Shown here: positions 1 to 28,341 of the stretch, one piece after another
Layout of the letters: every line of letters begins with the position of its first letter
Position numbering within the stretch: the stretch's first letter is position 1
Origin: Candidatus Gemmiger excrementavium
GTDB lineage: Bacteria > Bacillota > Clostridia > Oscillospirales > Ruminococcaceae
Direction of reading: 5' to 3'
Assembly: GCA_019116485.1 (NCBI GenBank)
Contig: DXBO01000141.1
Location: 1 to 36,290 of the forward strand
DNA length: 36,290 bases
Program-made: the position numbers and the translations under genes
Notes under the pieces: generated by a model
What the model was told of the DNA's origin: nothing
The model's input: the letters and a program-made list of their open reading frames with translations, nothing else
The model's database searches: none

Positions 1-344
1 GCTTTCGCCTCCTAATAAATTTTGTGCCTTAGGCGAGCCGATAAACCACACACGTTTCCGGGCGTTCAACTTTCTCGCATGACAAAATCCGGTGAACCGT
101 ATTCACACAGTTCTCCCGGAAAGAATCATCACAAAGTCAGTCGAACATTGGTCCGTGCCGCAGAATGCAGCGCCGTACATATCCCTTTGTTTCCGTAATT
201 CTTTCGCCCGGTTCTAAGATCGGACATACTCCGCGGAAAAACCCCTCTGCCTATTGGCGGAGGGCAACCTCCCGCATCAACGCATATCGCGGCTTGCGCA
301 GAACGCTTGTGACATTCCGCCCAAGCCTTTCGCAGCCGAGAATG

Positions 345-24743: not shown

Positions 24744-25442
24744 TCACTTCTGGACGCGCTTGTCGCAGCCCACCGCCAGCCGGGTGCCGAAGGTCTGCAG
24801 AATCTGCACCAGCACCACCAGCAAGGCCGTGGCGAAAATTTCCAACACCACGTTGAAGCGGTAGTAGCCGTAGTTGATGGCGATCTTGCCCAGGCCGCCG
24901 CCGCCGATGATACCCGCCATGGCGCCGTAGCCCATGATGGTGGTAGCCGCGATGGTCACGTTGGAAATCAGGCCGGGCAGGCTTTCGGGGATCATGACTT
25001 TGGTGATAATCTGCAGCGGGGTGGCGCCCATGCTTTGGGCAGCTTCGATCACACCGGCATCCACTTCCCGGATGCTGGTCTCCACCAGGCGGGAGACAAA
25101 GGGGAAAGAGGCAATGACCAACGGCACGATGGACGCCGGGGTGCCGATGGAGGTGCCCACAATGAGCCGGGACAGCGGAATGACGATAATCATAAGGATC
25201 AGGAAGGGCACGCTGCGCAGCAGGTTGATGAGGGCGTTGAGCAGCCGCATGACCCAGCGGGGCAGCGGGCGGACCCCGCCCGGCTCACCGGTGACCAGGC
25301 AGACGCCCAACGGCAGACCCAGCACCAGGGCCAACAGCGTGGCTACTACCGTGGACCAGATCGTCTCCCAGGTTTCAAAGGGGATGGTGGGCAGCACCTG
25401 CAAAAAGGTCTGCCACTCCTTGCTTGCCAGAAATTCCGCCAT
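24744..25442 (-). CDS. metI: Methionine ABC transporter permease
   Basis: FETWETIWSTVVATLLALVLGLPLGVCLVTGEPGG...LLRSVPFLILMIIVIPLSRLIVGTSIGTPASIVPL. Confidence 0.93.
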   Translation of the reverse strand: MAEFLASKEWQTFLQVLPTIPFETWETIWSTVVATLLALVLGLPLGVCLVTGEPGGVRPLPRWVMRLLNALINLLRSVPFLILMIIVIPLSRLIVGTSIGTPASIVPLVIASFPFVSRLVETSIREVDAGVIEAAQSMGATPLQIITKVMIPESLPGLISNVTIAATTIMGYGAMAGIIGGGGLGKIAINYGYYRFNVVLEIFATALLVVLVQILQTFGTRLAVGCDKRVQK

Positions 25443-26440
25443 CAGCCGTTCACCTCCTCATAGGTAATGCCGGGATAATTCTTGATATAGTCGATAGCCT
25501 TGGCCGCGTTCTCATCCTCAGGCAGAGCCAGCAGCATACTGCCCAGGGTCTGGCCGTTGACGATACGGGTATCCGCCGCCAGGATGGACACCAGCGCCCC
25601 GCACTGAATGGCCAGACTGGCCACCAGGGGTTTGTCGGTGGTCTGGGTACCGTTGAAGGCCACCCGCACCAGTTTGTGGCCGGGCATGGCTTCGGCTTTG
25701 GGGGCCCCTGCCGGGTAGACCAGACGCCGGGCCGCCGCCGAGGTGGGATGGCTGAAAATAGCCTGGACCTCCCCTTCCTCCACCACGGTGCCCTCGTCCA
25801 GAATGGCCACCCGGTTGCAGATTTCCTCCACCACGCTCATCTGGTGGGTAATGACCACCACCGTGATGCCCAGTTCCCGGTTGATCTTCTGGATCAGCTG
25901 CAGGATGGCATGGGTGGTATTGGGGTCCAGGGCACTGGTGGCTTCGTCACACAGCAGGACCTTGGGGTCGGTAGCCAGGGCGCGGGCGATGGCAATGCGC
26001 TGTTTCTGCCCGCCGGAAAGCTGGGCCGGGTAGGCGTCGGCCTTGTCGGGCAGCCCCACCAGTTCCAACAGTTCCCGGGCCCGGGCTTCGGCCTTTTCTT
26101 TAGGGACTTTGGCCAGTTCCATCGGGAACATGATGTTGCGCAGGCAAGTGCGCTGCATCAGCAGGTTAAATTGCTGGAAAATCATGGTGATCTCCCGCCG
26201 GGCAGCCCGCAGGTCGGCGGCGCCCAGCTGTTCCATAGCGCGGCCATTGACCAGGACCGAGCCCTCGTCGGGGCGTTCCAGCATATTGATACAGCGCACC
26301 AGCGTGGATTTGCCTGCGCCGGACATGCCGATGATGCCGTAGATATCCCCGTCCCGGATGGTCAGGCTGATATCGTTCAGCGCCACCACTGTGCCGCCCT
26401 GGGTGGCGAAGCGCTTGGTCAGATGTTGCAGTTCGATCAT
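25442..26440 (-). CDS. metN: Methionine ABC transporter ATP-binding protein
   Basis: GIIGMSGAGKSTLVRCINMLERPDEG Walker A, LSGGQKQRIAIARAL signature, C-terminal NIL domain. Confidence 0.95.
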   Translation of the reverse strand: MIELQHLTKRFATQGGTVVALNDISLTIRDGDIYGIIGMSGAGKSTLVRCINMLERPDEGSVLVNGRAMEQLGAADLRAARREITMIFQQFNLLMQRTCLRNIMFPMELAKVPKEKAEARARELLELVGLPDKADAYPAQLSGGQKQRIAIARALATDPKVLLCDEATSALDPNTTHAILQLIQKINRELGITVVVITHQMSVVEEICNRVAILDEGTVVEEGEVQAIFSHPTSAAARRLVYPAGAPKAEAMPGHKLVRVAFNGTQTTDKPLVASLAIQCGALVSILAADTRIVNGQTLGSMLLALPEDENAAKAIDYIKNYPGITYEEVNG

Positions 26441-26537: not shown

Positions 26538-27419
26538 TCAGAACAGGGGCAGCACGGCACCGTTGTAGGTGGTCTCGATGAAGCTCTTGACCTCGTCGCT
26601 CTTCAGCGCGGCGAGCAGGGCCTGCATAGCAGCGCTGTCCTCGTTGCCTTCCGCGACTACCAGAACGTTGCCGTAGGTCTGGGCGGCTTCGGAGGCGGCA
26701 TCCTCGGTGGCCAGGGCGTCATCCTTTACCGAGAAACCGGCCTCCAGGGCGTAGTTGCCGTTCATGACCGCGTAGTCCACATCAGCCAGGGTACGGGGCA
26801 GCTGGGCAGCTTCCAGTTCCTCTACCTGGACATTGTGGGGGTTCTCCACAATGTCATTGATGGTGGCGGTCAGGCCGGCATCCTCCCGGATGGTGATGAT
26901 TCCCTCGGCAGCCAGCAGCTGCAGGGCCCGGGCCTCGTTGGTGGTGTCGTTGGGCACCGCGATGACCGCGCCGTCGGTGATTTCCTCCAGGTCCTGGCTC
27001 TTGCCGGGGTAGATGCCCAGGGGTTCGTAGTGGATGGCGCCCACGCTGACCAGGCGGGTGCCGTTCTCCTCATTGAAGGAGTCCAGGTAGGGCTGGTGCT
27101 GGAAGTAGTTGGCGTCCACCTCGCCGCTCTCGGTGACCATATTGGGCTGCACGTAGTCGCTGAATTCGATGATCTCCAGGGTAATGCCCTGTTCGGCCAG
27201 GATGTCCTTGGCCACTTTCAAAATCTCGGCGTGAGGCGTGGGGGAAGCGGCCACCTTGATGGTAGTGCCGGACAGGTCACTGCCGGTCTCGGCGGTAGAG
27301 GCCGCGGCCTCGCCGGAATCGGCGGGGGCAGTACTTTCGGATACGGAGGCGGAAGCGCCGCAGGCGGCCAGGCTGACGGCCAGCGCACCGGCCAGAAGGG
27401 CAGAAAGCAGTTTTTTCAT
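26538..27419 (-). CDS. metQ: Methionine ABC transporter substrate-binding lipoprotein
   Basis: Lipobox LAVSLAACG; TIKVAASPTPHAEILKVAKDILAEQGITLEIIEFSDYVQPN...DANYFQHQPYLDSFN. Confidence 0.95.
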   Translation of the reverse strand: MKKLLSALLAGALAVSLAACGASASVSESTAPADSGEAAASTAETGSDLSGTTIKVAASPTPHAEILKVAKDILAEQGITLEIIEFSDYVQPNMVTESGEVDANYFQHQPYLDSFNEENGTRLVSVGAIHYEPLGIYPGKSQDLEEITDGAVIAVPNDTTNEARALQLLAAEGIITIREDAGLTATINDIVENPHNVQVEELEAAQLPRTLADVDYAVMNGNYALEAGFSVKDDALATEDAASEAAQTYGNVLVVAEGNEDSAAMQALLAALKSDEVKSFIETTYNGAVLPLF

Positions 27420-27570
27420 GAGATTTTCTCCTTTGTGTATTGTTTAACAGGTTCCGGTTGGTTTTGTGCGGTACGTCCCTCAACGTCACATTCGCACACC
27501 GGGCTGTTTGTAGATGGGACCACGTTCCATGTACACATTCCTCCTCATCGGTTGGAAGCCAAAAACAAAA

Positions 27571-27602
27571 GCGGGGCGCCGAAATTGCTTCGGCGCCCCG
27601 CT
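27571..27602 (-). terminator. Attenuator terminator in the metQ leader
   Basis: Minus strand AGCGGGGCGCCGAA-GCAAT-TTCGGCGCCCCGCT followed by TTTGTTTTT, between promoter and metQ. Confidence 0.85.
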
Positions 27603-27612
27603 GTGTCTGCCT

Positions 27613-27714
27613 TTATGCGCCCAATTCCGCGCATGGGAAAGCAGGTACAGGCTGCCGAAGCAAACTGCACATGCACATCATCATGCCGAAACGGCTGCTG
27701 CGGATCATAGCCAT
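27613..27714 (-). CDS. Putative Met/Cys-rich leader peptide
   Basis: 33 aa MAMIRSSRFGMMMCMCSLLRQPVPAFPCAELGA with AGGAAAGGGG SD-like sequence upstream; stop lies 10 nt before the terminator. Confidence 0.65.
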   Translation of the reverse strand: MAMIRSSRFGMMMCMCSLLRQPVPAFPCAELGA

Positions 27715-27762
27715 ACCCCTTTCCTGCAAAATTGGGAAGCCCTGGCGGCTTCTGTTGGTTAG

Positions 27763-27791
27763 AGTATAGCCCCCCGGGGCGCGGCTGTCAA
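27763..27791 (-). promoter_or_regulatory. Promoter for metQ leader
   Basis: Minus strand TTGACA (27786-27791)-N17-TATACT (27763-27768). Confidence 0.82.
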
Positions 27792-27924
27792 CAGGTTTGG
27801 GCAAAAATGCCGGATTTTTCGGTATTTTTACCAAAGCGTGGCAAAATGTGCCCAGGGGCTTGCCAATTTCCTACAAACATGGTATGGTAATAGTATCATA
27901 CCCGAACCGGAAGGTGGATGCGCC

Positions 27925-28341
27925 ATGAAATTTTCGACCCGTGACCGCTATGCCCTGCGCCTGATGTCGGAACTGGCCAACCGGCCCGACAGCCTGGTGC
28001 CGCTGAAAGACATCAGTGACGCCCAGGATATCAGCCTGAAATACCTGGAGCAGATCGTCACTCCCCTGACCAAGGCCGGGCTGGTGGTCAGCGTACGCGG
28101 CGCCCAGGGCGGCTACCGGCTGGCCCGCCCCGACACCGAGATCACCGCCGGTGAGATTCTGCGGGCGGTGGAGGGGGAACTGACAGCGATCCCCTGCCTG
28201 GGGTCCGACATTGACTGTCCCCGCCGGGGGCAGTGCCAGACGCTGCATTTCTGGACCGGGCTCAACGATGTGATCAACGAATATGTGGACAGCGTTTCTC
28301 TGGCACGGCTGCGCACCATGAACGGCGCGGCCAAAGGCTGA
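27925..28341 (+). CDS. Rrf2 family transcriptional regulator
   Basis: MKFSTRDRYALRLMSELANRP...DAQDISLKYLEQIVTPLTKAGLVVSVRGAQGGYRLARP; Cys triad IPCLGSDIDCPRRGQC. Confidence 0.94.
   Translation: MKFSTRDRYALRLMSELANRPDSLVPLKDISDAQDISLKYLEQIVTPLTKAGLVVSVRGAQGGYRLARPDTEITAGEILRAVEGELTAIPCLGSDIDCPRRGQCQTLHFWTGLNDVINEYVDSVSLARLRTMNGAAKG

Follow-up and report, generated by a model that had tools for sequence, protein, structure and literature searches.

A methionine-codon leader peptide ahead of metQ in Gemmiger, probably a transcription attenuator that stands in the place of a T-box

The window, i.e., the whole analysed stretch of 36,290 nucleotides of Candidatus Gemmiger excrementavium DNA, carries on its minus strand a methionine importer operon (metQ, metN and metI) preceded by a promoter, a short ORF rich in methionine codons and an intrinsic terminator. 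The features used below are the following, in window coordinates and with proposed functions where a function is named:

27838-28341, plus strand: Rrf2-family regulator gene, divergent, adjoining the metQ promoter (TIGR00738 E=1.2e-36)
27763..27791, minus strand: sigma-A type promoter of the leader, TTGACA-N17-TATACT; transcription start expected near 27756
27710..27727, minus strand: region 1, Shine-Dalgarno zone of the leader, GCAGGAAAGGGGTATGGC; predicted partner is region 2' (duplex energies, MFE fold)
27613..27708, minus strand: leader ORF (A), likely start ATG 27708, 31 aa, MIRSSRFGMMMCMCSLLRQPVPAFPCAELGA; 33 aa if the start is ATG 27714
27667..27684, minus strand: putative control codons ATG ATG ATG TGC ATG TGC (Met-Met-Met-Cys-Met-Cys), conserved in Gemmiger leaders
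27648..27663, minus strand: region 2, antiterminator 5' strand, TTGCTTCGGCAGCCTG; covarying pairing with region 3
27635..27644, minus strand: region 2', CTGCTTTCCC, just 3' of the core; predicted to pair with region 1 (MFE fold, duplex energies)
27585..27600, minus strand: region 3, CGGGGCGCCGAAGCAA, made up of the 5' arm and loop of the terminator; pairs with region 2 at 14 of 16 positions
27560..27602, minus strand: intrinsic terminator with a 14-pair stem (3:4), a loop of 5 nt and a T-rich tail
27486..27530, minus strand: second uORF (B), MERGPIYKQPGVRM, with an AGGAGG ribosome site, ending CGA-ATG-TGA; Gemmiger-only peptide family
26538..27419, minus strand: metQ, methionine-binding lipoprotein, putative regulated gene (PF03180 E=4.8e-90; TIGR00363)
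25442..26440, minus strand: metN, ABC ATPase with NIL domain, putative regulated gene (TIGR02314 E=4.2e-105; NIL domain)
24744..25442, minus strand: metI, ABC permease, putative regulated gene (PRK10782 MetI E=1.4e-58)

The promoter agrees with the consensus in 11 of 12 positions (TTGACA at 27791-27786, a spacer of 17 nt and TATACT at 27768-27763, minus strand). Leader ORF A ends with the stop codon 27615-27613, 10 nt before the terminator, whose stem (27602-27570) is followed by TTTTGTTTTT, and within the leader TTGCTTCGGC (27663-27654) is exactly complementary over 10 nt to GCCGAAGCAA (27594-27585), all on the minus strand. The original prediction, which read this region as a Met/Cys leader-peptide attenuator of metQ(NI), had placed the promoter, a 33-aa ORF with MMMCMC, its stop, the 10-nt gap, the terminator, the 10-nt complement and metQ, and all of these positions were exact. 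The 33-aa frame is present, but its start has to be moved: the peptide probably has 31 aa (MIRSSRFGMMMCMC...) and begins at the second ATG (27708), 6 nt past ATG 27714, because homologous leaders align there and the Shine-Dalgarno spacing is better.

When both strands of the 36-kb window were scanned for a short ORF with a ribosome site and dense Met/Cys codons plus a terminator, leader A was the only match. The same scan gave 0 matches on the antisense strand of met loci from relatives (151 kb), and one match in 174 kb of other DNA, itself ahead of a metF-like gene. The antiterminator duplex of the window leader alone is better than 97% of dinucleotide shuffles (p = 0.028), and in our judgement it is conservation and covariation, rather than this single-sequence statistic, that carry the case.

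Conservation was followed in a sample of 35 Gemmiger genomes, 32 of them with metQ, from which 30 metQ loci were fetched and the upstream DNA was readable in 29. A leader with ribosome site, short ORF and MMM is present in all 29, and the promoter TTGACA/TATACT with the same spacing in 28 of them (by pattern). The same leader also stands before metG (Met-tRNA synthetase, an unlinked transcription unit) in 6 of 26 Gemmiger metG loci, each time with this promoter. In the set used for terminator and folding counts (35 leaders, 29 of metQ and 6 of metG), a terminator lies 2-24 nt past the leader stop in every case. The sequence changes in a clade-specific manner, yet promoter, ribosome site, start, stop, Met codons, core and terminator are kept. 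The codon run and the complement, on whose conservation the original prediction had staked itself, are both genus-wide, with compensatory change. A DNA similarity search with the leader across the family found little outside the genus, and a search anchored on the genes (metQ, metG) worked instead.

The codon runs read MMMCMC, MMMCMY or MMMRMC in the metQ leaders and are shortened to MYM, MVRM, MRM or MCM in the metG leaders (at least two Met in 6 of 6), while MRMR is also found among the Gemmiger runs without Cys. Methionine and cysteine had both been proposed as control codons; judged from these alignments, the invariant control codon is Met, and Cys, which some Gemmiger leaders lack or replace, is often present in the genus without being required there and is common family-wide. 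A sensor of Cys only was rejected, as several Gemmiger leaders replace Cys and none replaces Met. The Met run is not the only conserved part of the peptide within Gemmiger: ERRDG before it and LLRQP after it are kept as well, which would be expected if the ribosome were stalled by the peptide sequence on binding of a metabolite (methionine, SAM or cysteine), and not by a wait for charged tRNA. Such nascent-chain arrest seems improbable to us, since RNA pairing accounts both for LLRQP, which is encoded by the antiterminator strand, and for the C-terminal part, which is encoded by region 2'; the N-terminal part differs between clades, and only the Met/Cys codons are common across genera.

The pairing of regions 2 and 3 overlaps the terminator 5' arm and is mutually exclusive with the terminator. 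Its pairs change together in relatives, as TTCGGC:GCCGAA, GCGGC:GCCGC, CCGGC:GCCGG, GGCATTCTG:CAGGATGCC and GCGTCCTG:CGGGATGC. In the alignment of 16 distinct but related rows, whose kinship inflates counts and whose strands were excised and joined by hand, 82% of cells pair, versus 26-50% in slid registers. The covariation score was reached by 0 of 500 shuffles and every slid register was lower, while two-sided changes, taken as a count, were not above shuffles (2 vs. 2.6; 16 rows). We regard the 2:3 covariation evidence as good but not overwhelming. Regions 1 and 2' covary as well: over the 35 leaders, the mean duplex energy was -19.0 kcal/mol with own partners, -15.1 kcal/mol with partners swapped between sequences and -14.0 kcal/mol with shuffled ones.

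Folding of nascent RNAs (up to the terminator loop) predicts 2:3 pairing in 34 of 35 when a ribosome occupies the first Met codon of the run, and in 25 of 35 without a ribosome; in L106, a metG leader, no antiterminator is clearly recognisable. For the complete RNA at equilibrium, the terminator is preferred in 33 of 35 leaders even with a stalled ribosome, and antitermination would therefore have to be kinetic, i.e., to take place during transcription. Since the antiterminator forms without a ribosome in 25 of 35, an untranslated leader is predicted to read through, unlike that of trp.

On this basis, which is comparative and thermodynamic throughout, we consider it highly probable that the leader is a ribosome-mediated transcription attenuator sensing the supply of charged methionyl-tRNA, probably with cysteinyl-tRNA as a secondary input. 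With ample methionine, the ribosome would cross the Met run and region 2 and so block 2:3 pairing, RNA polymerase would make the 3:4 terminator, and transcription would end before metQ. Under a shortage of Met-tRNA, the ribosome would wait at the Met run and leave region 2 free to pair with region 3 once this is made, the terminator would fail, and metQNI would be transcribed; the stalling, the readthrough and the starvation response are what we infer. The leader has the control-codon ORF, the intrinsic terminator, the exclusive antiterminator and the control codons kept while the peptide diverges, by which attenuation is recognised. Attenuators of the class usually, though not necessarily, have the leader stop codon placed between regions 1 and 2, whereas the ORF here spans region 2 in a variant layout; the arrangement of regions 1 to 4 that was first proposed therefore differs from that of trp, and its region 1 is the Shine-Dalgarno zone of the leader itself.

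Translation initiation itself requires Met-tRNA, which raises the problem of how methionine can be sensed by translation at all. The answer may be that the untranslated RNA is still able to form the antiterminator, and readthrough of an untranslated leader would in this respect suit a methionine sensor.

Outside Gemmiger, 40 loci of the same family were sampled with up to 4 kb upstream of metQ. A T-box (RF00230) is present in 23 of them, 12 at the Rfam gathering score and 11 more at E <=5.5e-8, and its specifier is AUG in all 10 alignments that were read. Nine non-Gemmiger metNIQ or metQ loci have instead a Met/Cys-rich short ORF just upstream of metN or metQ (e.g., MLMMCMCAMCMMRAEENYCNMQS, MKRAVSTVMMSTTMRMCSCMMRMFCCEK..., MRMCEMCGMCCIQ... 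and MPVACRNSGLKMAMQMMDMPMSMGMPMMC...), with no likeness to the Gemmiger leader except the Met/Cys codons. A terminator follows in 8 of the 9, found by scan or visible in the sequence, and at locus L206 a strong terminator lies 78 nt past the leader stop. In several unrelated leaders the nucleotides that follow the codon run are complementary to the terminator 5' arm (e.g., CTGCGTCC:GGGCGCAG in L234); outside Gemmiger such complements are mostly above shuffles and individually weak (p 0.035-0.85). None of the examined non-Gemmiger loci has a T-box and a Met/Cys leader together, and four metNIQ loci (L204, L220, L222 and L233) have neither. In Gemmiger, Rfam gave no match to a T-box or SAM riboswitch in the window, where the original prediction had seen neither, or in 18 metQ/metG loci, while relatives match RF00230. 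The window also holds, at its edge, an S10-Clostridia ribosomal protein leader (RF03136, 47.7 bits, 204-288, minus strand).

In a MetN tree the leader loci are confined to one half, where at least four state changes are forced, and leader and T-box were therefore exchanged more than once. A separate observation in loci L201-L240 is that leader peptides co-occur with a long MetN (about 340 aa) and T-boxes mostly with a short form (about 255 aa). Met-rich or Met/Cys leaders with a terminator were also found before a metF-like gene of another genus (L177, 1514 onward, MGRFGQNSNMMMCMCGMMMRSALFGVLRSRRV) and, beyond this family but within the class, before a metY-like (O-acetylhomoserine sulfhydrylase-like) gene (L305) and ahead of a LysR-type regulator (L303), these three gene names being read from protein starts with no database match. 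Before metG outside Gemmiger, no Met/Cys leader was seen in 40 loci, one of which is too short to judge. At L236, a leader-like ORF (MHNVVINRHSMMCCRMFYSRAYDMAG...) with a terminator lies about 3.2 kb upstream of a metQ-like gene, and the gene that follows it is a polar amino acid ABC permease, perhaps of a cystine or methionine transporter.

The codon signature thus recurs, in unrelated sequence, in other genera exactly where T-boxes otherwise sit, which supports the original prediction; as a Met/Cys leader-peptide attenuator of metQ(NI), with a predicted response to starvation, it largely holds. Most likely, the metQ leader replaces the T-box used by related bacteria, and the importer would be switched on when ribosomes lack methionine.

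The divergent Rrf2-family gene suggests another level of control, in which a CymR/IscR-like regulator would bind the intergenic region and act mainly at initiation, and the leader and terminator would only lower basal expression. Besides its TIGR00738 match, this gene hits the CymR model with E=3.1e-29, short of that model's cut-off, and the DNA adjoining its start, TTGCCAATTTCCTACAAATATGGTATGGTAATAGT, which may be an operator, is alike in two relatives (L024 and L025). As the main control this is quite unlikely, for it accounts neither for the Met run and the covariation of the antiterminator nor for the leader copy at metG and the exchange with T-boxes; the two could, however, coexist as layers. 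Promoter, ORF and terminator are complete in themselves, as would also be expected of a small-protein or sRNA gene unrelated to metQ, with a metQ promoter further downstream. This reading is very hard to believe given that no further promoter-like site lies on the minus strand from the terminator to metQ, that the peptide is not kept as a protein across genera, and that the same kind of unit stands ahead of metG, metNIQ, metF-like and metY-like genes.

Between the terminator and metQ lies uORF B, which the original prediction missed. Its peptide family is also found before metG in the same genome and in relatives (MKTSPRCRQPGFRM...; L092 and other Gemmiger metG loci), where it stands in place of leader A, with no metG locus having both. 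The consensus is M-K-T-G/S-P-x-C/Y-K/R-Q-P-G-V/F/I-R-M, and a scan of 84,980 named genomes for the uORF B pattern gave 26 matches, all in Gemmiger (Oscillospiraceae in NCBI taxonomy); in 25 of them metQ or metG follows immediately, and in the remaining one the locus breaks off. Other codons vary synonymously, but the Arg that precedes the final Met is always encoded by CGA (35 of 35), which makes up 1 of 209 Arg codons in nine genes of the window; it is followed by ATG and then TGA or TGC/TGT, i.e., an invariant CGA-AUG-UG. The possibility that uORF B hides the metQ or metG ribosome site was not supported by folding (SD accessibility 0.48 free vs. 0.49 with a ribosome on B). The simplest idea for its action would be a pause at CGA-AUG. 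We suggest only tentatively, and would sooner doubt than assert, that methionine uptake and Met-tRNA synthetase in Gemmiger are under two independent translation-sensing devices, attenuator A and uORF B, the latter with a Met-dependent pause at CGA-AUG-UG that sets expression past the terminator. If true, this would make uORF B a novel type of short regulatory uORF, and one that can be exchanged for A at metG.

Leader-peptide attenuation is a classical regulatory class. The metQ leader is like the trp, his, leu, thr and phe attenuators in its control-codon ORF, its antiterminator opposed to a terminator and the genes of the same amino acid downstream. It differs from them in reading Met (with Cys), for which initiation also needs Met-tRNA, in being found in Clostridia, and in an ORF that continues across region 2 as far as the terminator, whereas theirs stop ahead of region 2. 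In the literature searched, SAM riboswitches and T-boxes appear as the controls of methionine genes in Firmicutes, and leader peptides are rare beyond Proteobacteria and Actinobacteria; no Met-codon attenuator is described there, although subscription journals were mostly outside this search and absence is not proof. SAM riboswitches (S-box) control methionine genes in many Firmicutes, and so share the target class with the metQ leader, with none at the Gemmiger loci by Rfam.

Cysteine leader peptides are known from Actinobacteria, in whose methionine operons no RNA element was found, namely from the cys operons of Mycobacterium (PMC1262725); in Rhodobacterales, cysS is preceded by a Cys-codon uORF, the uORFC-8-2 motif (PMC8632094). 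These are alike in placing a Cys-codon uORF before sulfur amino acid or synthetase genes, but they use Cys alone with no Met run, and the mycobacterial ones, unlike the metQ leader, have no conserved terminator. In bacilli, histidine leader peptides replace a T-box at hisS/hisZ (Naville and Gautheret 2010, PMC2965389), which is again a Firmicutes leader peptide in the place of a T-box of the same gene family, although amino acid, genes, class and sequences differ. The Met T-box of metNIQ (RF00230), present at 23 loci of this family, shares with the metQ leader the operon, the position and the presumed signal (tRNA-Met charging). It binds the tRNA directly, whereas the metQ leader, without a T-box, would sense it through translation of its ORF. 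At least a dozen met leaders that lack annotation come to light here, and a Met-codon leader attenuator that has repeatedly changed places with T-boxes at the same operon of gut Clostridia would provide two unrelated readers of one tRNA, by which the evolutionary exchange of RNA sensors becomes directly testable on a single gene.
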